64,000 bases of DNA, from contig NC_092670.1 in assembly GCF_964355755.1 (NCBI RefSeq), positions 24,117,201 to 24,181,200 of the forward strand, read 5' to 3'. Both the position numbers and the translations under genes were made by a program. The stretch's first letter is position 1; the number at the start of each line of letters is the position of its first letter. Shown here in pieces: positions 4,440-44,220 of the stretch. Source of the DNA: Antedon mediterranea (taxonomy: Eukaryota; Echinodermata; Crinoidea; Comatulida; Antedonidae). The notes beneath the pieces were generated by a model. The model was not told where the DNA came from. It did no database searches and saw only the letters and a list, made by a program, of their open reading frames with translations.

Positions 4440-7400
4440 ATGGTTGGAAAAGAAGATATTGAACTATCAAGGTATGATTCTTTATCTGTTGAACTGGGAC
4501 GGTACTACGAACGATACGCAACATTTCCAGCTCGTGAAAGAAAGAAAGCGGCTGCAATTGTTGAAAAAATCAAATACCATTTTCTGCAATTCATCAAAAA
4601 AGAACAAGAAGAATGTAGCAAGCCGTACACATTTGGTAATCTAATGCATCAAGGTAGTAGCTACAAGGCACTGAAAGTGATCAAGCCAGACGAGTTTGAC
4701 CTCTTGTTACCACTAATATTGGAGGAGGATGATTGGGAATTGAACACCCTATGGTAAATACAAAGCTCCAGGATATTTCTTCATAAAGGAAATCGGTGAT
4801 ACCTCAGAATACCCCATTAAAATTGTAGAAAATGGCTACTTAGGTCGTAATCTGGTGAAAAGAAATTTGCAATCGGTTGTACACAGAGCTGTGAATCATA
4901 TGACAGACAGCTGTGACACTGGAGCCACACGTATCACTCTGAAAGTACACGGCCCAGCATTCCCACTTCGGGTTTGGTATGATTTTTACCAAGAAATGAG
5001 CATTGACATCGTCCCAGCAATACGACTTAATGATAGGTTATTTGTTTCAAAACGTCATCCACATGCTACTGACAGTCCCTTGGATTTGTACAATAACATG
5101 TGGCGTGAGAGTTTTTCTAAACAAGAAAAATATATCATTAAAACTATGGATAGGAAAAAGGAATGTCGCAAGAAGTGTCTAAAAATCCTGAAAACAATTC
5201 AAATTGTGAATCCATCTGAACAACTTAGATTTCTGAGTTCATATCATCTTAAGACATGCATGTTACATTTAAATAATGAATGTGTTGAGCCGTGGGATGA
5301 AGAATACATCGGCGATCGTTTTAGAGATCTGCTGTTGGTACTTAACACATTCTTAGAACGTGGGGTGATGGAAAGTTTCTTTGATCCTGGTATAGATCTG
5401 TTTGCAGGCCTAAGTGAAGATGGTATACAAAGTACCGGAGGATGGCTTAATAAAATTGTTTCTTCAGATGATCAAATTATTGAACAGTTGTTACATAGGT
5501 AAGCATGGTGCCAATTTATATTTTGTTACCTAATCAAATATTGATAGGCCTACCTCAATCAATGGTAAAGTTGATAAACTGAATCACGACACAACGTCCA
5601 ATTCATATACCATCCGACCCACTTCACTGACTGTAATCATATCATTGTATACTGGGCTATTGCGGATACTTTTTTTTTTAAAGAAAACACATAATTATTT
5701 TATTTTTTAGAGTGAAACAATCAGAATCAGAAAGTCTTGGTAGTCCGGTAAGCACGATTATTTTCTAGGTATATCGCATAAGGCCTACCTAATAATAGGT
5801 CTATGCATTCCGCCCAGCATTTTAGGCATATTAAATTTGTTCAATATTAACGCTAAAATGAGGGTGAATAAATTATAGCAGTTAGAGAGTGAAGCCTTGT
5901 GAAGATTAAGATTGTCTGACCCTTTTTTATTCATCATCAAGGCTCGTCATTATGCGGATTTGAATACCGCCCCCGGGTAGCATCTTTCTGACGAAAGAAA
6001 ATAGAATCTTGATTTTAGAATGTTAACGTCTCTGTTCTATATTTCAGGAGTGGAGAGGTATGATAGATTTGAATATGAACACATATGATGACGGTAATGC
6101 CTTCGTTACTACAATGAATTTAAATAGCAATAATTATAATACAGTTATGGCTTACGGCAAAATAATGGAAATTACCGTCGACATCCGTTATATTATTTAA
6201 TTTGATAATAACAATTTCAGAAGTTTCTTCGTATACTAGTACTAGTGCAGAATCTGAAAGTAACTCATGTGATGAAGGTACTATTCTTTATTTAATACAA
6301 ATTGATATTATATTCCAAAGGCCCATTTACACTAGGACGATAACGATCGACGATAAATAGATAAGCATGCATTTTATTTACATAACACAAAAGAAATTAG
6401 AAGGTTTTTCGTTCTAGAACTAATCATTTATGCTGTCTTTGATAAAAATGATATTTTTAAACTCCAATTAAATAAAAACAATAAAATCATTGTATTGTCA
6501 CGATATTTTTGCTCTTGCTAATCATGACGTCATTTGATTGGTGGACGTGTGAAAGGAAGAATAGATGGTTATTCTCAGTGTTATTCTATAGTTCTATAAT
6601 GAAAAGTTTTCATATTTCTTCTGTTTTATGTATTAAACATGCATATTTGTGTCTATTTATCGTCGATCGTTATCGTCCTAGTGTAAATGGGCCTTAAACC
6701 TCGTGTCTGTAATTTGTCGTCGTTTAGTACCAATAAACATTTTTTTTTCTTTTAAGAAGTTTTCTATGATGATCTAGAATCTGAAAGTAACTCAAGTGTG
6801 GAAGGTGATGCTTTATTCACTGAATTTAAATACCAATATAGACTTATAACTGTAGGCCTACATGATTGACAATCATAAATGTTTGTAATTTTTTTTTCAT
6901 GTATTCTTTTTTGTATGAAAGTAATTCATTTGAAAAGGTATATAAAAATAATTTTTTTACCACCGTTAAGTTCTTTTTCACTGTAAAAGTACGCCAGATC
7001 TATTAGTGTTCTAGCATTTATTTTCTAAAACTGTTCATTTTTGGCATCTTTAGCACTATGTTCAGAAGATTACAATCCAGCTTATTACGCTCCGAATGAG
7101 GTAAGTACCTGTATTTTAAAAACAAAAAAGTAGGTCTGTAAGCCTTTGTTGATTTTATTTTATTAGATAATAATCACATTTTGATTATGTTAATAATAAC
7201 AATATTACTAATAATTAACCAATGAAAATTATAATGATTTATGATAAACTTAATTTTTAGAAAGTGGATATTGAAGCCCAGCGGCCACTGATCCACAAGG
7301 GTAGACCTACCGGTAACGCTTTTATCCATATTTTCTCGTTGTTATTACAATCAGAATGTTTCTTTTTGCTCAGATGTACCTTTGAGTAAATTTTTCATCT

Positions 7401-7687
7401 CGTAATATACGTGACGAGAAATTACGAGATTATTGTGAGCCGTGCGCATGCGTAGATCAGTGAGCTAGCGTTTGCTTTGTTGTTTGTACGATTGATTTGG
7501 TGCAAAGTTAATAAAATTCCAACGTTATTTGAACCTTTTTTAATAATATAAACTGTAATAGTTTCTTTTAATTTTAGTTTACTATATTTCTTTCAAATGA
7601 AGTCAATGGTGTTTTTTTTCAGAGCAAGTGGTGGAAATGAAGAAGCCGACAAAACAAAGATCGTGTGCATGTTGCTTAATTAGTTAA
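4440..7687 (+). pseudogene. cGAS-like (Mab-21 type) nucleotidyltransferase, copy 1, frameshifted
   Basis: Exon 1 (4440-5498) carries a cGAS/Mab-21 nucleotidyltransferase core: HQGSSYKALK (GS motif), then PDEFDLLLPL with the paired acids, then MSIDIVPAI with the third acid, then a Mab-21 C-lobe (MWRESFSKQEK, ECRKKCLKILK, LSSYHLKTC). Relative to copy 2 two bases are missing near 4740-4750, so translation stops at 4757; homology resumes in another frame at once. Downstream exons with matching phases: 5711-5747, 6048-6093, 6221-6277, 6757-6804, 7054-7100, 7261-7312 and 7623-7687. The last hits TAA at 7685, just before the bases that encode the membrane anchor in copy 2. A likely 5' UTR exon ends at a donor near 4388. 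Either a pseudogene or, if the frameshift is an assembly error, a gene for a soluble protein. Confidence 0.85.
6318..6695. mobile_element. 378-bp MITE with about 44-bp terminal inverted repeats
   Basis: Left end AAGGCCCATTTACACTAGGA and the reverse complement of the right end are identical over about 44 bp (through GATAACGATCGACGATAAAT). It sits in the intron after the exon ending at 6277. The equivalent intron of copy 2 (11188-11294) lacks it, so insertion followed the gene duplication. No coding capacity. The target duplication is not clear. Confidence 0.88.
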
Positions 7688-7753
7688 TTTGTTGTGTTTA
7701 TCATAATAATGCTTATTGGATTGTTCCTATACTTTAAATACAAAAGTACCTGA

Positions 7754-9389: not shown

Positions 9390-12062
9390 ATGGTATTATC
9401 GGTTGAACTGAAAGAGTACTACAATGAACATGCAACATTCTCAGATCATGAAAACGTGAAAGCTAATCAGATTGTTGAAAGAATTGAAAACTTTATTAAA
9501 CACTTTTTAGAACACACAAAACTGGAAGAACTGCCATACACATTTGGTAATCTACTGCATCAGGGTAGTAGCTACGAGGGGCTAAAAGTGATCAAGCCAG
9601 ACGAGTTTGACCTCATGTTACCACTAAAGTTAAATGAGCCTGACTGGGAAATAACGAAACCTTACGGACCATACGAAACACCAGGATATTTCTTCATAAA
9701 AAAGAAACGAATCTATTTAAATCCAAAAGAGATCAAACAAACATTCCAATCGATTTTACAAAAAGTAATCAATCGAATACAACAAAGAAATACTATAACT
9801 TTGCGAGCATCCTCTGGCCCTGCACTAACACTTAATGTTTGCTATGATGACAATCTAAAAATGAGCATTGATATCGTTCCAGCTATAAGCCTTAACGGTA
9901 GATTATTTGTCACAAAATGTCATCCAAATGCAACTGACAAAAAACAGGATTTGTATCATAACATGTGGCGCGAGAGTTTCTCTGAGAAAGAAAAACATAT
10001 CATTCAAACTATGGATAGGTTCAACGAATGTCGCAAGAAGTGTCTAAAAATCCTGAAAACAATTAGAAGTATGAATCCATCTAAACAACTTAAATGTCTG
10101 TCTTCATATCATCTTAAGACATGCATGTTATATCTAAATAAAAGGGATGTTGGCCCATGGAATGAAGCATACATCGACAATCGTTTTAGGGATCTGCTGT
10201 TGATACTTATCGAATTCTTAAATCGTAAAAGCATGAAAAATTTCTTTGAACCTGGTATAGATCTATTTGCAGAATTAAATGAAAAGGCAATAAAAGATAC
10301 CAAAGTGTGGCTTAATAATGCGATTATTGAAGATTTGCTATGTAGGTAAGCATGGTTGAATTAATATTTTTGGTGTGATACCTACTGCAATGTATTTAAC
10401 GTTGATCATGCCTAGCACATTACTATCATTCATGCCAACCACTTTACTAACTGTAATTATTTTACTTAATTGAAAAGGAATAGAAATTATTAAACATTGT
10501 TACAAGCATGGCACCATTTTATATTTGTTACCTATCTGTAATCAAACATTGATATCCAAATCAATAATCAAGTTGATCAATACTGAATCACAATACCCAT
10601 TCATCATACCTTCCAACCCATTCACTGACTGTAATCATTTTACAATTTGTTAAAAAAGGAAACACATTTTCATAATTTTATTTTTTAGAGTGCAACAATC
10701 AGAATCAGAAAGTTCTGGTGGTCCGGTAAGCACGATTATTTTCTGTTTATGTATATCGTACCTAAGGCCTATGTATTGCGCCCAACATTTTATTTAAATT
10801 AAATATGATATTAAAGAATTTGTTATTTTGTCCTATAATATTAACGTTAAAATGAGTGACTGAATTCCATGGGCCCCGGGTAGCATCTTTCTGACGAAAG
10901 AAAATAGAATCTTGATTTTAGAATACTGTTAACGTCTCTGTTCTATATTTCAGGAGTGGAGAGGTATGATAGATTTGAATATGAACACATATGATGACGG
11001 TAATGAATTAAATAACAATAAGGGCCTAATTATAATACAGTTATGGCTTACGGCAAAATATGGAAATTACCGTCCACGTTCGTTATAAATTTTTATTTTC
11101 TCTAAATGCTGAATTTTTCAATACATTTTAAAATGGTGTTATCGTATACTAGGGAAGACTCTGAAAGTAACTCATGTGATGAAGGTATTCTTTATTTAAT
11201 ACAAATCGATATTATAATAATTCTAGGCCTCATGATTGTGATTTTCGTTATTTGTCGTCGTTTAGTATACCATTAAACATTTTTAAGTTTGAAGTTTTCT
11301 ATGATGATCTGGAATCTGAAAGTAACTCAATTGTTAAAGGTGATGCTTTATTCACTGAATTTAAATATCAATATAGACTTATAACTGTAGGCCTACATTG
11401 ATAATCATAAGTATGTTTGTACAGTAATTCATTTGAAAATGGTTAACATTCAAATTGTTTACCACCATTAAGTTCTTTTTTTCTTTGTAAAAGTACGTCA
11501 GGTCTATTATTTTCTAAACTTGATGTTCATTTTTTAGCAACTAATTCATCAGTAAGTTCAGAAGATGTTCTGAATGACGTAAGTACATGGGTTTTTTTAA
11601 ATTTTATTTTGTTAAATAAATAATCTCAATTTTACTAATAATTAACAAATGGAAATTATAATGATTTATGATAAACTTCATTTTTAGGAAATCGATATTG
11701 AAGCCCAGCCACTGATCAACAGGCCTACCGATGGTAATGCTTTTATTCATAATTGTGTCGTTTTTATTACATTCAGAGCGTTTTTTTTTATTGCTCAGAT
11801 GTACCTTGGGTAATATTGTTTATAGGCTAATTAGTATATTTGAATATAATTTATGTTTTTAAACTGTAGTTTCTTAGATTTATTTTACTTATTTCTTTAA
11901 AACGGAAACCAATGTATTTTGTTTTCAGAGAAAATGGGCATGGAAATGAAGAAGCCGACAAAACAAAGATCGTGTGCATGTTTCTTAATTAGTCTTCTTG
12001 TTGTGTTTATCATAATAATGCTTATTGGATTGTTCCTCATCTTTAAATACAAACGTACCTGA
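9390..12062 (+). CDS. Tail-anchored cGAS-like (Mab-21 type) nucleotidyltransferase, copy 2
   Basis: Exons 9390-10345, 10689-10725, 10954-10999, 11295-11339, 11538-11578, 11688-11733 and 11929-12062 join in phase to 434 residues. Residues 1-319 form a nucleotidyltransferase of the cGAS/Mab-21 family: G59-S60, E72 and D74 in PDEFDLMLPL, D161 in MSIDIVPAI, then WRESFSEKEK and SSYHLKTCMLYL of the C-lobe. All three metal-binding acids are present, so catalysis is plausible; ligand and product are unknown, and no cGAS-type zinc thumb was seen. A linker rich in Ser, Glu and Asp follows. The end is RSCACFLIS, a hydrophobic stretch at about 409-429, then KYKRT: a C-terminal tail anchor with two cysteines at its cytosolic edge that could be acylated. 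The start ATG is the first in frame. The exon homologous to 6221-6277 has lost its acceptor here and is skipped in the model. Confidence 0.85.
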
Positions 12063-28843: not shown

Positions 28844-31800
28844 ATGAATGTTTTTCGATTAATAGGCGATTTGTCCCATCTTTTGGCCATTATTATTCTT
28901 TTAATTAAAATATGGAAAACGAGATCATGTTCTGGTAAGTATAATATATTTAATATTCAAGTAATTTAGCGTCTACTTTATGTGTACCGGCGAGTTGTGA
29001 CAAAGTCAGTGGATTGTTGTTGTGCAGGGACCGCACGATAAAGGGTTGAAGTGCCACCAACGTGGCCCTGATTTTTGGCCTAATGCAAAATTATTATAGG
29101 CTAGCCTAACTGTTACGTGCGACGTATTTGGACACTGTTTATATTTACTTATTGTAATATTTCTAAAACAAGCTTAGGGCCTAGACTGAGAGAATACTTT
29201 TCTTCTAATGTGTTATTAAATATGGATACATTTTGATCAACAATTCGATCATCAATCATATTATAAATAATAATGATATATCATGGTCCGGAGTAAATTG
29301 AATAAATATTCATTAAGTCGTGTGTCTTTTTAGCAAAAGAATTATTTAGAAACAAAGATTTTTAATGGATGATTGTATTGTTAAATTGTCTGTAAAACGT
29401 ATACTGTAATGACCTTCAGCTGATCCTAATTTCCCTAATTGCTAAGAAGGAAATGGTAAAATATTCTCATTGTTATAAAGATCAAATTGTTTTTCAGATG
29501 CCAGTTTATTAAACGCCGTGGCTAAAGATACGGTACCGTATTCTAACTTCTGTTTACTAAAGGTACAGTAAAATTGCATTACGTCATAATCAGCCAATGG
29601 GGTGCTGGTACGTTTGTGATGTCATCGTATAAGGACTTGGGATTTTTTTTCATATCGCGTCTGTTGTATATGTAGAGAATTCCTATCGGCGGCGCCAGGC
29701 TGCGTGGATGTGTGTGCGCTGCAGATGAGGGTTTTATTTTTATTCCAAATGGCCTATTTAGGCCTATATTTTTTATTAAACTTATGGTCACAATGGTGAC
29801 CATAAACAACAAGCAAATGCAGACAATAAAGGGGCCCTCAAATACTATGATTTAGACAGTAGCCACAGGGCTGACGAGTCACAGAAATCAGCGCACACAT
29901 GCAGCTGGCCCCAGCCTGGCATCGCTTTCCCTACACAAACAAACTCATATAATGACGTTATAGTACGTAGTAAGTAGGCCTGGGCCTCTTTTGAAACGGT
30001 TTTCTGTATTCTAGAATTAAAATCAACATGTTTTGGCTTTTCAATAATAATAACAGATGTAGGCTACATTTAGTTTTTGTCACACACAACGGCGATAATA
30101 GCGATAAATAAAGCATAAAGAAAATGCGGTTGATCACTGTTTTCGCGATATGAACAAAATCCACAAAGTCCTTATACGATGACGTCACATGTACCAGCAC
30201 CCCATTGGCTGGTTATGACGTAATGCAATTTTACCGTACCTTTAGTAAACAGAAGTTAGAATACGGTACCGTATCTTAACCGACAGCGTTTATTAAATTT
30301 CAATTCTGGCATTTAAAAAACCTTCAGAGAAATATCCAGTATAATTGTATAGGGCCGGCCGTAGAAGATTTGTTTTAGCAGTAACTATTCCTCATTAAAG
30401 ACATTTGTTGATTAACCATTCATTATTAATGTTTTGCTTTTCTCAGGTATATCTGGAAAAAGTCAGATCCTGTTTGCACTTGTATTCACAACTAGATACT
30501 TAGATTTGGTTACAAATTTCATCTCTGTGTACAATACAACAATGAAAGTGTTCTACATTGCAGCTGCATATGCAACAGTTTACCTTGTGTACGTTAAATT
30601 TAAGGCAACGTACGACGGCAACCACGACTCTTTTAGGATGGAGTTCTTGGTTGTTCCTGTAGGAGGTTTGGCTGTACTTGTCAACCATGATTTTTCGCCA
30701 CTTGAGGTTAGAAATTTACTATGTTTAATTGTTAAAAAACAATATACAGTAACAGAAATACAGAATAAAAATAAACCATACATAATTATTTCCGACGAAT
30801 TTTTATTAAATGAGGATAGTCTATTGTGTGCCAACATTTACCTGGATAAACCAACAATAGCCCTATCTCTCTAAGGAGAGAAGACATTTACTAACAGAAG
30901 AAATTCAGTTAAATACCCATCGAATAATGATCATTGCTTTGTTTAATTTTCTTCTTTAATTACATTCCTGCATTCATTGTACAATATTTGCAGAACCTGG
31001 CATTTGTATTTATTTTTTTGTTAGATTCTGTGGACTTTCTCGATCTACTTGGAGTCTGTAGCCATTTTACCGCAGCTGTTTATGATCAGCAAGACAGGAG
31101 AAGCTGAAACCATCACCAGTCATTACCTGTTTGCTCTTGGTGCTTACCGTGCGTTCTACATCGTCAACTGGGTTTACAGATACTATTTTGAGGGATTCTT
31201 TGATCTTATCGCCATTGTTGCTGGATGCGTACAAACAATACTCTACTGTGATTTCTTCTATTTGTACATTACTAAAGGTAAGCTGTGGGTATTAATTTTT
31301 GTAGAACACATCCAGACCTAATAATGACTTATTACAGTATCGTAAATGAAGGCTTGGGTAGTTACACTTTTTTTTTACCCTTTGGGAAAAAAATGAAAAG
31401 AAAAAAACCATATTCTCAGATGTTTTCGCATTCACCAGTGTGAATGCAGACTACGAGTGGTTTCAGACAAATTCTTTTGATTTGTTATTAGAGCTAATTC
31501 TTTCTTTCAATAAAAGCTTGCAAAATGTAATAATAATATAAGTTAGTGATATGAGGGTTAATAATCCTAATTGTTTAATAATTAACAACCTACCACCAGT
31601 CGCTAATGCGGCCAGCTGTTGGAATCAAAATGTGAAATCACTGCTATAAATGATCTTTGTTAATTCAAGATACAGGGCATTATTTCCTACAGAGTTCTGT
31701 AAATCACACAAGTGTTTAATCTTAGCATACGTAACCAGTGTTTCACCCACCTCTAGGGTAGAGATTGGTTTATGAATGTGGATGTGACTCTTTTATTTAC

Positions 31801-35688: not shown

Positions 35689-38600
35689 ATGGGCAAAAGC
35701 AAAAAGAAGAAGAAAGATAAGGCACAGGTTGCAGCCTCAGAAGGAGGAGATGTATTTAATACCAGTCTAGCAGAATTAAAACAGGCTCTAAACATACTAG
35801 GCTTTGATGTTGTACCAAAAACACTAACTCCAAATAATATGGTTTCATCTCCTATTACTGATATCATTAAGGAGTCAAGAAAACGCAAGTTATCTGTCAG
35901 CTCCAATGCAGAAACTGAATCCAGTGGGCCCCACTCAAAAAAACATAAACATAATGACCAGCACAGAAAACCAGAGGAAATTGGGTCACCTGTGAGATCT
36001 AATGCTGAGTCTTCGATTCCAAAATTTAACACTTTACGTAAGTAATTATTACAGTACAGTATGTTTAAGAAGTCCTAAACAAAACAACTTCAAGTACAAC
36101 TTTAAGCCTGTTTTATACTAAAATAATAATTTGCTTATTTAATATTATATAAGCAAAATAAATTTGCTTATACAGTACCCATTTTTTTTAACATTGCTTT
36201 TTGCTTCTTTTAGATTCTACTCCTACTTCGACAAGAAAAGTAGCCAATGTTTCATTTTTATTCAATTCTCAAAGCTCATCCTCTGACCTGGACTTCTCTT
36301 TGGCAAAATTGTCACCATTAACTACTAATAATAATCTCGGCAAGAAACATAAAGACAAAAAAATAAAGTCGCCTAAAAAGGATGCAAGCAAACAAACATC
36401 TTCTCAAAGTCAGTTAAATATAAATAAATCTGGACAAAAGAAGACATCGTCGCAAGGAAAAGCTTCAACCAGTTGTGATTGGACAAGAAAGGAACTGGCT
36501 GCTGTTGATGCCACAAAATTAAATTTATTAGAAAAATATTTTGTTGGTAAAAACAAAGATGTAACAGCAAAAGTAAAATCTCCCAAGAAACAGAAGGTAA
36601 CGGAAACATCAACCAAGAACACTGTCAACATTAATCAGCCTAATGATACCCAAAGCATGTCTACAGCTTCTCCTAGTAAGATGCTTACAATAACTTTACC
36701 GAAAAAAGATAGTAGGCCTAATACCTTTATAAATGGACAGGGTGATAAAACAACACCAGAAGTAAAATCTCATAAGAAAAAGAAGACAAAAGAAAAGCCC
36801 AACAAGAACACTGTTACCGCAAATCAGCCTTCTGATACCCAATGTGAAAGCACATCTACAGATTCTCCTAGTAAAAAACTTATAATAACCTCACCGAAAA
36901 AGGATAGTAATATCTTTATAAATGGACAGGGTGATAAAACAACACCAGAAGTAAAATCTCATAAGAAAAAGAAGACAAAAGAAAAGGCCAACAAGAACAC
37001 TGTTACCGCAAATCAGCCTTCTGATAACCAATGTGAAAGCACATCTACAGATTCTCCTAGTAAAAAACTTATAATAACCTCACCGAAAAAGGTTAGTAAT
37101 ATCTTTATAAATGAACAGGGTGATAAAACAACACCAGAAGTAAGATCTCATAAGAAAAAGAAGACAAAAGAAAAGGCCAACAAGAACACTGTTACCGCAA
37201 ATCAGCTTTCTGATACCCAATGTGAAAGCACATCTACAGATTCTCCTAGTAAAATACTTTTAGTAACCTCACCGAAAAAGGATAGTAATACCTTTATAAA
37301 TGAAGAAGGTGATAAAACAACACCAGAAGTAAAATCTCATAAGAAAAAGAAGAAAAAAGAAAAGGCCAACAAGGACACAGTTACCCAATGTGAAAGCACG
37401 TCTACAGACTCTCCTAGTAAAAAACTTACAATAACCTCACCGAAAAAGGATAGTAATAGAAATACCTTTATAAATGAACAGGGTGATAAAACAACACCAG
37501 AAGTAAAATCTCATAAGAAAAAGAAGAAAAAAGAAAAGGCCAACAAGGACACAGTTACCCAATGTGAAAGCACCTCTACAGACTCTCCTAGTAAAAAACT
37601 TGCGTTAAATTCACCAAAAAATGATAGTAATACCTTTAGTAATAAACAGGGTGATAAAACAGTTGAAGAAAAGAAAGGTGGTCAGAAAAGAGTTTCAGAA
37701 GAAAAGGTAAAGTATCAATTTGTTACATTTTTATTTCAATTAACTTAAAGCGGAGATCACAAACCTCCATTATCAACTTTTTTTGTCTGAATTGCCCTTT
37801 AGGTATCTCCAAAGAAAAAAGAAAAGTTATCCAATGCTGAGGTGCCACAAGTTAACATTAATAATGCAGTAAGTAAAAGCCCTAAAAAACATGCTGTATC
37901 CCCCAATGAAGAAAGTGTGGCTGTACAACAAAGTAAAAAGAAAAAGAAATCCAAAAAGCATGAAGAAGAGGCAATTACAGGTAATGATAACAATGCTAAA
38001 AACCATTCTGAATCATTAATGTTGCATCAACCTGAGGAAGAGGTATCACAAAAGAAATCTCACAAGAAAAAGAAAAAGAAAAGTAGTAAAAAAACATCAA
38101 GTCAGAAATTGTCGACAGAAACGTCGGCAACTTTCAAATTGAGTTTAACTGATTCAGGTAGTGATACAAAATTGACAGCGAAGTCTGTAAAATCAAATAA
38201 AAAATCAAAAGAAAAAATTTCAACGAGTATCGGAAATTCTTCTAGTAAACAAATTGTAGGAAATTCTGGGAAGGTAGAAAAGGATAAGAAAACTAAAACT
38301 ACTAAAAGTAAAAATGAAGCTAAACTCAAAGAAACTAAGCAAAATACTGAGCAAGCAATTGATACAGATTTGTCAAAAGGTAAGAAAAAACGAAAATCAA
38401 GTACAAGTAAAAAGTCGGTTGACAAATTAACTTTAACTGACACAAATTCATTGAAAAAAGCAAAGAGCCCTGCAAAAAAGACAACTGTTAAAAAAGTTAC
38501 CAAAAAAGAAACACCAAAAACAATGATTAAATCAGCAAATGAAATTGTTGAGGATGAGGAGAGTTTTTTTGATTTGTTTGACTTTGAAGCTTGGGAAGAC

Positions 38601-38744
38601 AAGATGGACAACGTACAGCATTTATTGTCTGATGGAACTATGGAGACAGATCTAGGATTGATACCAATTAAGAAAAAGGACAAAAAAAGGAAGAAGAAGA
38701 AGAAAAAGAAGGATAATTTGAAAGAGAAAAAAGAAAAATTGTAA
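35689..38744 (+). CDS. Lysine-rich tandem-repeat protein, nucleolar type
   Basis: Exons 35689-36037, 36214-37706 and 37803-38744 join in phase to 927 residues. The N-terminus MGKSKKKKKDKAQ is strongly basic; a short non-repetitive segment follows (TSLAELKQALNILGFDVV). Residues about 293-605 are six tandem units made of GDKTTPEVKSHKKKKTKEK, then NTVTANQPSDTQ, then CESTSTDSPSKKL and SPKKDS. Basic KKKK tracts alternate with Ser/Thr/Asp clusters that suit casein kinase 2 and proline-directed kinases. This resembles the alternating design of NOLC1/Treacle-like nucleolar proteins, but no domain was recognised. Near the end an acidic-aromatic patch (ESFFDLFDFEAWEDKMDNVQ, about 866-886) precedes an uninterrupted KKK-rich tail. 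No membrane segment. Function unknown; nuclear or nucleolar location is inferred from composition. Confidence 0.85.
36741..37680 (+). repeat. Coding minisatellite, 189-bp period
   Basis: GGTGATAAAACAACACCAGA starts at 36741, 36930, 37119, 37308 and 37482, and a decayed sixth (GGTGATAAAACAGTTGAAG) at 37650. The first three steps are exactly 189 bp (63 codons), then 174 and 168, always multiples of three. Near-identity of the units points to recent unequal exchange or conversion. Confidence 0.92.
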
Positions 38745-39124: not shown

Positions 39125-40395
39125 TGAAAAAGTACCCACGTTATCAGAATTCTTACCACAAAGCCAAAGTGGGTTTCGCAAAGGCAGAAGCACAAGTGAT
39201 ATTGTTTTTACACATCGATGGCTTATAGCTAAAGCGCAACAAGAAACAATAAATATTTACATAACCGGTATAGATATGTCAAGCGTGTTCGACACCGTGG
39301 ATAGAAACAAAATCCTCGACATACTCAAACATATTATAGACGAAGATGAACTTAGGATCGTTAGATTTCTGCTGAGTGAAACCGGATTAAATCTAAAAAT
39401 AAAAGGGGCAAAAGAACAGCCAATATTCCTAACCAACATCGGCACCCCTCAAGGAGATATATAGATTAAGCTCGGTCTTATGTGCACTGTTTACCTTGCG
39501 TCTGCGCTACGAGGAATCTTATATATAAATTTACGTAAGGGCAAAATTCGATAAATCGCGCGTTATTTCTAGAATGTTTACTCGATGGTATATAAAGTTG
39601 GTTAGAATCTCGGTACTGATTTTAACCACCAGATGTAACCCTGTTTACTAATTAAATTGAGTTAGATAATTAGTTATTGAGAATTAAAACGAATTTAGGT
39701 TCAACGATTTGCCCCAAATAGGGGTGTTGTCCGATCGGGGTATACACTGTCTAATGGATGTCCTCTTAAAAATTACCTGCACACAATAATACGAGGATGC
39801 ATCATATTTTCCTATCTCCTCCTTGGGGACAGAGAAGACATAATTAGAAGAAAACAACTAGCGCGTGTAGCAATGACCAAACTAAACTCGATGTGGCTTC
39901 GAAAAGATAAAATCAAATTAAAAATACGTATCAAGCTGTACAACTCGCTAGTTAAAAGTATATCTCTACAACTCTGAAACATGGGGACTCACAAAAGAAG
40001 AAGCACATAAACTTGACACATTTCAAAGACAGCAACTTCGCAAAATTATAGGTATCAGGTTCCCAGACAGAATATCGAACATAAATTTATACAGAAGGAC
40101 AGGAACAAAACCAATTTCATTAGAAATAGTCGACGCAAGATGGAGACTACTGGGTCACATACTTAGACAAGACCCATGTACACCAGCCAACACAGCAATA
40201 AGCTATTATTTCAGCAACACTATCAATATAAAATTTCGAGGAAGACCGAGAACCACCCTACCAATAACTCTCAGAAACGACCTACTCACCCATAAGCAGA
40301 ACACAAACATCAAGTATCCCGGACAATTGAAAACCAAGAAAGACGTCAAACAACTTAAAGAACTAGCCAATGAAAGATCATGTTTTCCTTTATAA
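39125..40395 (+). mobile_element. Decayed non-LTR retrotransposon (RT and C-terminal part)
   Basis: From about 39160 the plus strand reads SQSGFRKGRSTSDIVF, then DMSSVFDTVDRNKILDI and TNIGTPQGD, which are reverse-transcriptase motifs. The YADD region is missing, replaced by unrelated sequence at 39470-39760. Homology resumes at about 39830 with RRKQLARVAMTKLNSMWLRK, SETWGLTKEEAHKLDTFQRQ and RWRLLGHILRQDP, the C-terminal part of such ORFs, with a frameshift near 39965. 5' truncated and non-functional. Confidence 0.85.
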
Positions 40396-42280: not shown

Positions 42281-44220
42281 CTGAACACTGAATACTGAAA
42301 TGCTTTATTTGTCTTTATTTTTTTAAATTTTATTTTATTCAATTTCCAGGCACAACAATACATGACAACACAGCGGTGCAGCACCCTGAGGATTGCCATG
42401 AGTGCAAAAGCACTATCGAGATGGCTCTCCATATACTGCACTAGAACATATAAGACAAACATATTATACACAAGATGCTCTACATAAACAAAGACTTATT
42501 ATTAAGTCTTTGGGAGTGGAGTTGAAAATTGTCATGAGAAGGACTTGAACCCAGGACCCTTAAATTGGTAGCCAAGCATCATTACCACCAAGCCACAGCT
42601 CCACTCCATCATCATCATCATCATAAAATAACAACAGAAATTCTTCTTGAAGATTGACAATTATTAGTACAATAATAAATAAATATACAATATAATATAT
42701 TATGTACACACACATAATTGCAAAAAAAAAAATAAGTTATGAAACACGGTGTAAAAAGACTAGGTATTAAAATTGAATAGGATTCAGGAGATTAAAATAG
42801 TTTAAACAGCTTTAAAAGGATTAAAAACAGCTTTAAAAGGATTCAAACCATTAGAATGTTCCTAAAACCTTTACAATTTATAAATTGCTAAAATTTCAAA
42901 TTTACGTTTTAAACGGTTTAAAATTGTTTACATAGTCTTGTATTACATAACATTTTATCGATGGTGACGTGAATTAATTATATGAATAGCATTTGCAACA
43001 AAGGCATATCTCGATCTGTTTGTCTTAGTTGTTGGAACATGTATTCTACCATTGCGTTTGATAATAAAGTATTTGCTAAGGGGATGATCAACATCCTTAA
43101 TTATTTTATGAGCTGCCTTCACTATCCAATCTATGTATATTTCATCTAACTACACTAACGGATCTTTAAGTTTAACAATATATTCAGCTTTCTTTGTAAT
43201 GCGATTCAATTTCTTTTTATCTTTTTTATTAATATTTTCATAATTGCATATCAAACAGAAAGACATAATACTTTGGATCATGGTGGTATAAAACAATTTT
43301 AACAGTGAGCTATCAATACTAAGGGATTTCATTTTGCGAAGTATAAACATTCTTTGATTGGCTATTTTAACTATTCTATTCGTATTGGTTTCCCACGACA
43401 GTTTGTGGTCCATGACAAAACCTAAGTATTTATATTCTTCTACTCTATCTACTTCGTTACCATCAATCAGAACTGGAATAATAGGATATTTCTTTACTCT
43501 AAAGTCTACGACCATCTCCTTAGTTTTACCAACATTTAACTTTAAATTATTCAATTTGCTCCAATTTACAAAATCTGATATCAATTTACGGTAGTCATAT
43601 TCATTATCATGCTTATCACCTAAAATGTATCCTGTGATAACAGTATCGTCTGCATATTTAATCACAGAACATGACTCATTTGGTGACCTAAAGTCAGAAG
43701 TGAAAAGGAATACAACACAGGTGATATTACACAGCCTTGAGGTACTCCTACATTTGTTATCCTGCCGTCAGACATGTTATGTTATGTGCCCATTAGCTAT
43801 TACAAACTGAGGTCTACATTTCAGGAAATCGGACAGCCACCTGATGATATCGTGGTTTATCTCCATGTCTTGCCGACGATAATGGTGTTAAAGGCACTTG
43901 AAAAGTCTACATACAGAGATCTAACATATGATCTTGACTTATCTAAGTGATTACAGATGTTATTTAGGTGTGTTAAAATAGCATCCTCCACACTTCTATT
44001 AGACTGATAAGCAAATTGATAATTGTCTTGAAAATTACTTGATTGATAAGGTTTGTCATTTGGATACTGAATTTTGTCACTGTTGGTACAATGCTGTCCA
44101 CACAAAAAGAAATATAATCAGAGGTGACCCGTGTTTCCATGTCAAGATCATTTGATTTAAAAGTGTCCCAATCTGTAGAATCAAAACAATCTTGCAGTTT
44201 GACACATCCCTTGTCCATCG
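42281..44220 (-). mobile_element. Decayed CR1/Rex1-like non-LTR retrotransposon, minus strand
   Basis: Minus-strand reverse-transcriptase blocks in order: QFAYQSNRSVEDAILTHLNN and SLYVDFSSAFNTI (about 43880-44040), then VGVPQGCVISPVLYS (about 43725-43765), then IKYADDTVITGY with the YADD active site (43630-43665), and NNLKLNVGKTKEMVVDF and VEEYKYLGFVMDHKLSW to 43150. Frameshifts between the blocks disable it. The 3' tail at 42281-42300 has short AGTATTC-like repeats, as in CR1/Rex1 elements, and abuts the interrupted MITE. 5' truncated near 44220. Confidence 0.85.
42465..42607 (-). mobile_element. tRNA-derived SINE
   Basis: On the minus strand: TGTGGCTTGGTGGTAATGAT (A-box region) and CCTGGGTTCAAGTCC (B box), then a body containing CAACTCCACTCCCAAAGACT and a distal AGAGCATCTTG. 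It matches 17850-18035. A CAT trinucleotide run follows at 42607-42624. It sits in the 3' region of the non-LTR element. Confidence 0.82.

Follow-up and report, generated by a model that had tools for sequence, protein, structure and literature searches.

The location of a nucleic-acid sensor decides what that sensor can detect, and a gene of the crinoid Antedon mediterranea raises the question of whether a cGAS-like enzyme can be held on a membrane by its own C-terminus. This gene, W2, occupies positions 9390-12062 of the plus strand in the stretch of 64,000 nucleotides that we analysed (the window), and has an upstream tandem copy, W1. A preliminary description of the DNA had joined seven in-phase exons of W2 into 434 residues, a chain that we rebuilt exactly (9390-10345, 10689-10725, 10954-10999, 11295-11339, 11538-11578, 11688-11733 and 11929-12062; phases 2, 0, 1, 1, 0, 1), with introns that are all GT-AG.

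The first exon (9390..10345, +) has 318 codons plus 2 nt and encodes the nucleotidyltransferase (NTase) core and a C-terminal helical bundle, as delimited by Pfam, by AlphaFold/Foldseek and by the shared donor. It ends at a phase-2 donor (AG/GTAAGC) with a TAA immediately behind it, so that an unspliced W2 transcript would yield a soluble protein of 319 aa. The short exons that follow on the same strand were drawn from the comparison with W1 and, for most of them, from the rebuilt model as well. Exon 2 (10689..10725) encodes the linker piece VQQSESESSGGP and exon 3 (10954..10999) the piece EWRGMIDLNMNTYDD, which is the same as W1 at 46/46 nt; exon 4 of the 434-aa model (11295..11339; VFYDDLESESNSIVK) is symmetric (1-1), exon 5 (11538..11578) adds the Ser-rich linker piece ATNSSVSSEDVLND, and exon 6 (11688..11733) encodes EIDIEAQPLINRPTD, linker with a dileucine-like EAQPLI. 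The last exon (11929..12062) holds a juxtamembrane segment (KKPTKQRSCAC), the transmembrane (TM) segment, the C-tail and a TGA stop. Another symmetric (1-1) mini-exon, DSESNSCDE (11158..11184, +), is optional and lies outside the 434-aa model; both it and exon 4 encode a SESNS core, and the acceptors of the two are good in W1 and weakened in W2. Since both mini-exons are symmetric and have weak acceptors, W2 products of 419, 428, 434 or 443 residues are possible, and the TM segment is in frame in all four.

The tail has the make-up that the preliminary description had claimed: an acidic Ser-rich linker (72 residues in the 434-aa model, pI 4.05), then CAC, then a hydrophobic segment of 21 residues that stops 5 residues before the end. 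This segment, FLISLLVVFIIIMLIGLFLIF (residues 409-429; 11982..12044, +), is followed by KYKRT and the stop. Its Kyte-Doolittle hydropathy is 3.39 over 19 residues, and the best window elsewhere in the protein reaches 1.09; the scan of the whole protein, a check that had been proposed with the original model, predicts a single TM segment near the C-terminus, with no second one and none at the N-terminus. Comparison of the W2 linker and tail with the PDB returned no relative. A strongly hydrophobic TM segment speaks for insertion by the ER route, a +3 C-tail of the KYKRT type is known from mitochondrial and peroxisomal anchors, and EAQPLI and CAC look like signals for endolysosomal sorting and palmitoylation, short motifs of a kind that can arise by chance. 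A site in endolysosomes, or one set by palmitoylation, would be just as compatible with the acidic dileucine-like EAQPLI and the CAC before the TM segment.

Where introns are AT-rich, short exons can be chained at will, and we therefore took W1 (4440..7753, +) as a test of the W2 tail. Comparison with W2 shows a tandem copy with the same exon layout that is now a pseudogene: a frameshift near 4744 disrupts its NTase exon, and a TAA at about 7685 interrupts its TM exon. Every tail junction of W1 is still GT-AG, the splice sites of 7/7 tail exons are retained, and exon length differences (7/7) and exon gaps (7/7) are multiples of three. The introns of the two copies differ at 291 of 1135 aligned sites (26%), with many indels, whereas the pooled tail exons differ at 36 of 361 (10%; P=6e-14). 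For the TM exon the count is 11 of 131 sites, and 27% of sites differ in the NTase exon; taken singly, exons 11538-11578 and 11688-11733 show no significant conservation between W1 and W2. Judged from this comparison, chance alone does not account for the exon chain of the W2 tail, and the tail exons appear to be real exons in the stated frame, which is the only claim that we make for the tail. Synonymous change in the TM exon is no higher than non-synonymous change (sd 1.0, nd 8.0), and with so few synonymous changes the conservation of the tail may partly reflect gene conversion or splicing constraint. We rejected dN/dS as a means of proving that the tail is under selection at the protein level, as synonymous changes are too few and W1 is a pseudogene. 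Around the 46-nt exon 10954-10999, identity between the copies extends over at least 25 nt of the upstream intron, for which gene conversion or a binding motif are possible explanations.

As to the enzyme itself, the three metal-binding acids that had been assigned to the Mab-21 catalytic domain (E72, D74 and D161) are all kept. A Pfam scan of W2 detected Mab-21 (PF03281, 5.2e-18) and Mab-21_C (PF20266, 1.9e-15), with MID51-like_C (PF21297) also above cut-off, and neither OAS1_C (PF10421) nor any other OAS family. The active-site string reads HQGSS...EFD...SIDI. Its glycine-serine motif HQGSS covers residues 57-61 (9558..9572, +; from alignment and motif match), the first two acids form E72-F-D74 (9603..9611, +) and align with H and Q of MID51, and the third, D161 (9870..9872, +), is invariant in the paralog alignment. 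Residues 58-162 match the cGLR motif h[QT]GS X8-20 [DE]h[DE]h X50-90 h[DE]h; the residue before the motif Q is H, and the leading 'h' position is thus not strictly hydrophobic. All full-length paralogs keep this motif and the three acids. The NTase of W2 is basic (pI 8.76), and inspection of the alignment revealed no H..CC..C cluster around residues 175-200 that would correspond to the zinc-ribbon (HCCC) insertion of vertebrate cGAS. A search of viral contigs with the NTase exon found no relative.

The best solved relative of W2 in sequence is MID51 (MIEF1; phmmer 3.1e-24, residues 3-303), a non-enzymatic receptor. The fold agrees: with an AlphaFold model built from nine sequences of the same genome (pLDDT 75.4, pTM 0.68, confidence lowest in the active-site loop, residues 59-73), Foldseek ranks 1-21 are MID51 (TM about 0.76) and cGAS structures come next. 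TM-scores against MID51 and cGAS are about 0.72-0.79, cGAS-DNA complexes reach a TMq of up to 0.78, and the E-value ranks MID51 ahead of these complexes. The earlier label of a cGAS-like enzyme hence stood as to cGLR type and metal ligands and had to be amended as to kinship, with MID51 closest among solved structures and cGAS second. MID51 and W2 share the Mab-21 fold and a membrane anchor (predicted in W2), but the anchor of MID51 is N-terminal and its metal site is degenerate (H/Q), while W2 has a C-terminal anchor and E/D. Because MID51 is nearest and E72 and D74 are kept where MID51 has H/Q, we assigned W2 to the MID51-like branch of the cGLRs, with a catalytic site intact by sequence. 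As far as alignment and predicted model go, W2 shows the three sequence and structure properties that define cGLRs (PMC9980059) while being nearest to an inactive, membrane-anchored relative.

The preliminary description had proposed surveying Mab-21 genes for a C-terminal TM segment. Within this genome, a search with the tail recovered only W2, W1 and a single unrelated match that was weak (E 1.1); none of 20 sampled long Mab-21 ORFs elsewhere in the genome, taken as single unspliced ORFs, has a C-terminal TM segment. Two of these 20, on C7, have N-terminal hydrophobic stretches.

A different kind of tail was found in the closest family. C1 and C7 carry eight related loci, and the NTase exon of the intact ones ends at the phase-2 donor of W2, with a stop codon directly behind it; in L010 the donor has decayed to ATGTAAG and the NTase exon is broken. 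Behind the NTase, a ubiquitin-like (UBL) exon is intact in five of the eight loci (L009, L010, L011, L014 and L016) and present as a relic or broken exon in the other three (broken in L015, scraps in L012 and L013). The window has no PF00240 match, and W2 has no UBL exon. In L009 (4299-6182, -; G000:C1:24191298-24193181) the second exon is a UBL (PF00240, 2e-19) that ends in RLRGG-stop like mature ubiquitin, and this cGAS-like enzyme could possibly be conjugated via its own C-terminus. The UBL tail of L011 (4418-6070, -) ends in RLRGGR-stop, one residue beyond GG; both L009 and L011 have intact enzyme exons and a single UBL exon in matching phase. The UBL exon of L010 (near G000:C1:24228615-24228827) is 8/262 nt from that of L011 and has the same RLRGGR-stop, an end that resembles ubiquitin-like precursors needing trimming. 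In L014 and L016, linker exons precede the UBL exon.

No ATG precedes the domain in the intact UBL frames, which makes free-standing UBL genes unlikely, and by a rough estimate the chance that the 57 genome-wide ubiquitin matches would fall next to the paralog loci is of the order of 0.003. In an NTase tree without a Mab-21-like outgroup, W1 and W2 are sisters (100/100) and UBL tails occur in both main clades; with a Mab-21-like gene as outgroup, the long outgroup branch leaves the position of W1/W2 unsettled. Most paralogs of this genome thus have a UBL as their C-terminal attachment, and the TM tail is probably derived, a state of one tandem pair. From the UBL in both clades and the sister pair W1/W2, we infer as the simplest order that the UBL was ancestral and was lost in the W2 lineage.

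Some loci have further peculiarities. L014 (G000:C1:23480501-23482687, -) encodes NTase, an acidic linker, a Gly/Ala-rich hydrophobic segment (GLGWLGIAAVGAAVGLTAAFSYLST) and then a UBL without GG. The UBL exon of L016 (3258-5977, -) runs in frame into a repeated hydrophobic C-terminus (FGWLVALLSLMVVVYCVPSP), and L015 (C7), in which the UBL frame is broken, has a hydrophobic stretch related to that of L016 in another frame. L012 and L013 (G000:C1, about 24.240-24.247 Mb) have intact NTase exons with decayed UBL scraps downstream; the coding sequence of both may by now terminate at the stop codon within the splice donor.

Among catalogued cGLRs, 87% have no added domain, and ANK, TPR, death-domain and multi-cGLR fusions have been described (Li et al., PMC9980059); the main text of that paper does not mention any cGLR that carries a TM segment at its C-terminus, and the literature that we searched gave no description of one with a tail anchor or a ubiquitin-like tail. 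The antiviral NTase Oas1b of the mouse carries an ER-targeting/TM domain at its C-terminus (PMC5473748), an anchor placed like that of W2 but in the OAS superfamily and not in Mab-21. In OAS1 p46, a C-terminal prenyl tail brings an NTase that senses nucleic acids to intracellular membranes (PMC13372824, PMC7612834) and is required to sense viruses replicating on endomembranes (PMC13372824). The p46 tail is made by CaaX prenylation of an OAS-family protein, whereas W2 is a Mab-21-family protein with a predicted TM segment. The view that membrane-bound Mab-21 relatives carry their anchor at the N-terminus agrees with the two C7 ORFs and with MID51, but it drew on the Mab-21 family only, and the OAS precedents have C-terminal anchors. 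The UBLs of OASL have no conjugable GG. OASL is an NTase with C-terminal ubiquitin-like domains (PMC13372824) and in this resembles L009, L011, L014 and L016, but it is an OAS-family protein, catalytically inactive, with two UBLs. In bacterial CBASS, a cGAS-like enzyme takes part with Cap2 in ubiquitin-like conjugation (PMC10097602), which is comparable to the RLRGG end of L009, not to W2; the CBASS enzyme has no fused UBL.

Read from the sequence, the exon model and its frame, the active-site residues, the predicted fold, the TM segment and the differing tails of the paralogs point to the reading that we favour and hold to be slightly better than an even bet, namely that W2 would be a catalytically competent cGLR of the MID51-like branch, C-tail-anchored in a membrane. 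If W2 is transcribed as modelled, the TM segment of its last exon would be inserted post-translationally, with the NTase and helical bundle on the cytosolic side and the flexible acidic Ser-rich linker acting as a tether of about 60-80 residues, its length set by the optional symmetric exons. Such a placement on an endomembrane would be analogous to that of OAS1 p46 and Oas1b. A nucleic-acid ligand near the membrane would then trigger synthesis of a cyclic dinucleotide, which would signal to the STING proteins that this genome encodes. Matches to the STING ligand-binding domain form a tandem cluster on the same chromosome as W2 (G000:C1:19073412-19107563, 18 exon-level matches). The C-terminal exon would be exchangeable behind the fixed phase-2 intron, and a likely ancestral UBL tail would have been lost in the W2 lineage, with linker and TM exons in its place.

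Other readings of W2 have to be weighed against this one. Its kinship would also suit a nucleotide-binding adaptor of the MID51 (MIEF1) type that recruits a partner, e.g. Drp1, at mitochondria or peroxisomes without cyclase output, the anchor having moved to the C-terminus. MID51 is indeed the best match in sequence and structure across the whole exon, PF21297 is above cut-off and the basic C-tail KYKRT fits outer mitochondrial or peroxisomal targeting. We nevertheless find an adaptor unlikely, as E and D are kept where MID51 has H/Q, the acids are present in all full-length paralogs, W2 has no N-terminal TM segment, and the expanded, tandem, fast-evolving family looks like an immune repertoire. 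The TM exon might instead lie outside the enzyme, if the working product were the soluble 319-residue cGLR obtained by reading through the donor to the TAA, or if the downstream exons formed a separate transcript. That W1 keeps the tail splice sites and frame, with length differences in multiples of 3 only, and that both W1 and W2, like the intact paralogs, retain the exon-end donor, makes this improbable in spite of the stop directly behind the donor in intact paralogs, of L012 and L013, which with their UBL exons decayed look as if they already ended at that stop, and of the in-frame ATGs of the last exon, from which a peptide of some 41 residues could be translated.

We consider it more doubtful still that W2 belongs to a decaying lineage-specific duplication, with a recently acquired TM tail and two functionless copies. 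Decay is plain in W1 (the frameshift, and the stop in the TM segment), affects L010, L012, L013 and L015 as well, and might be read from the two weakened linker-exon acceptors of W2; against it, the 318-codon NTase exon of W2 is intact, with all catalytic residues, and so is the frame of its tail.

Beyond the tail-anchored cGLR that we favour for W2, we tentatively put forward, as a possible but less than likely generalisation, that a fixed NTase exon is combined with interchangeable address exons: a tail anchor in one lineage and elsewhere a UBL whose RLRGG end might conjugate the whole enzyme. If this were true, cGLRs would have re-evolved both tail solutions of the OAS family (Oas1b/p46 and OASL), with an echo of CBASS Cap2. 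Were these genes expressed as modelled, they would form a natural set of enzymes differing in address tag, and the localisation of cGAS-type sensors would become directly testable. As a MID51 relative with intact catalytic residues, W2 also bears on the origin of the MIEF proteins from enzymes, and the UBL-tailed family around it is of no smaller interest than W2.

Elsewhere in the window, as seen by eye, an ORF at 30416-30874 is like a KDEL (ER-retention) receptor exon, long Lys/Ser-rich ORFs with internal repeats (SPKKDSNTFINEQGDKTTPEVKSHKKKK) at 36192-38744 are nucleolar-protein-like, and fragments at 39952-40395 and 43150-43767 are like a LINE-type reverse transcriptase.
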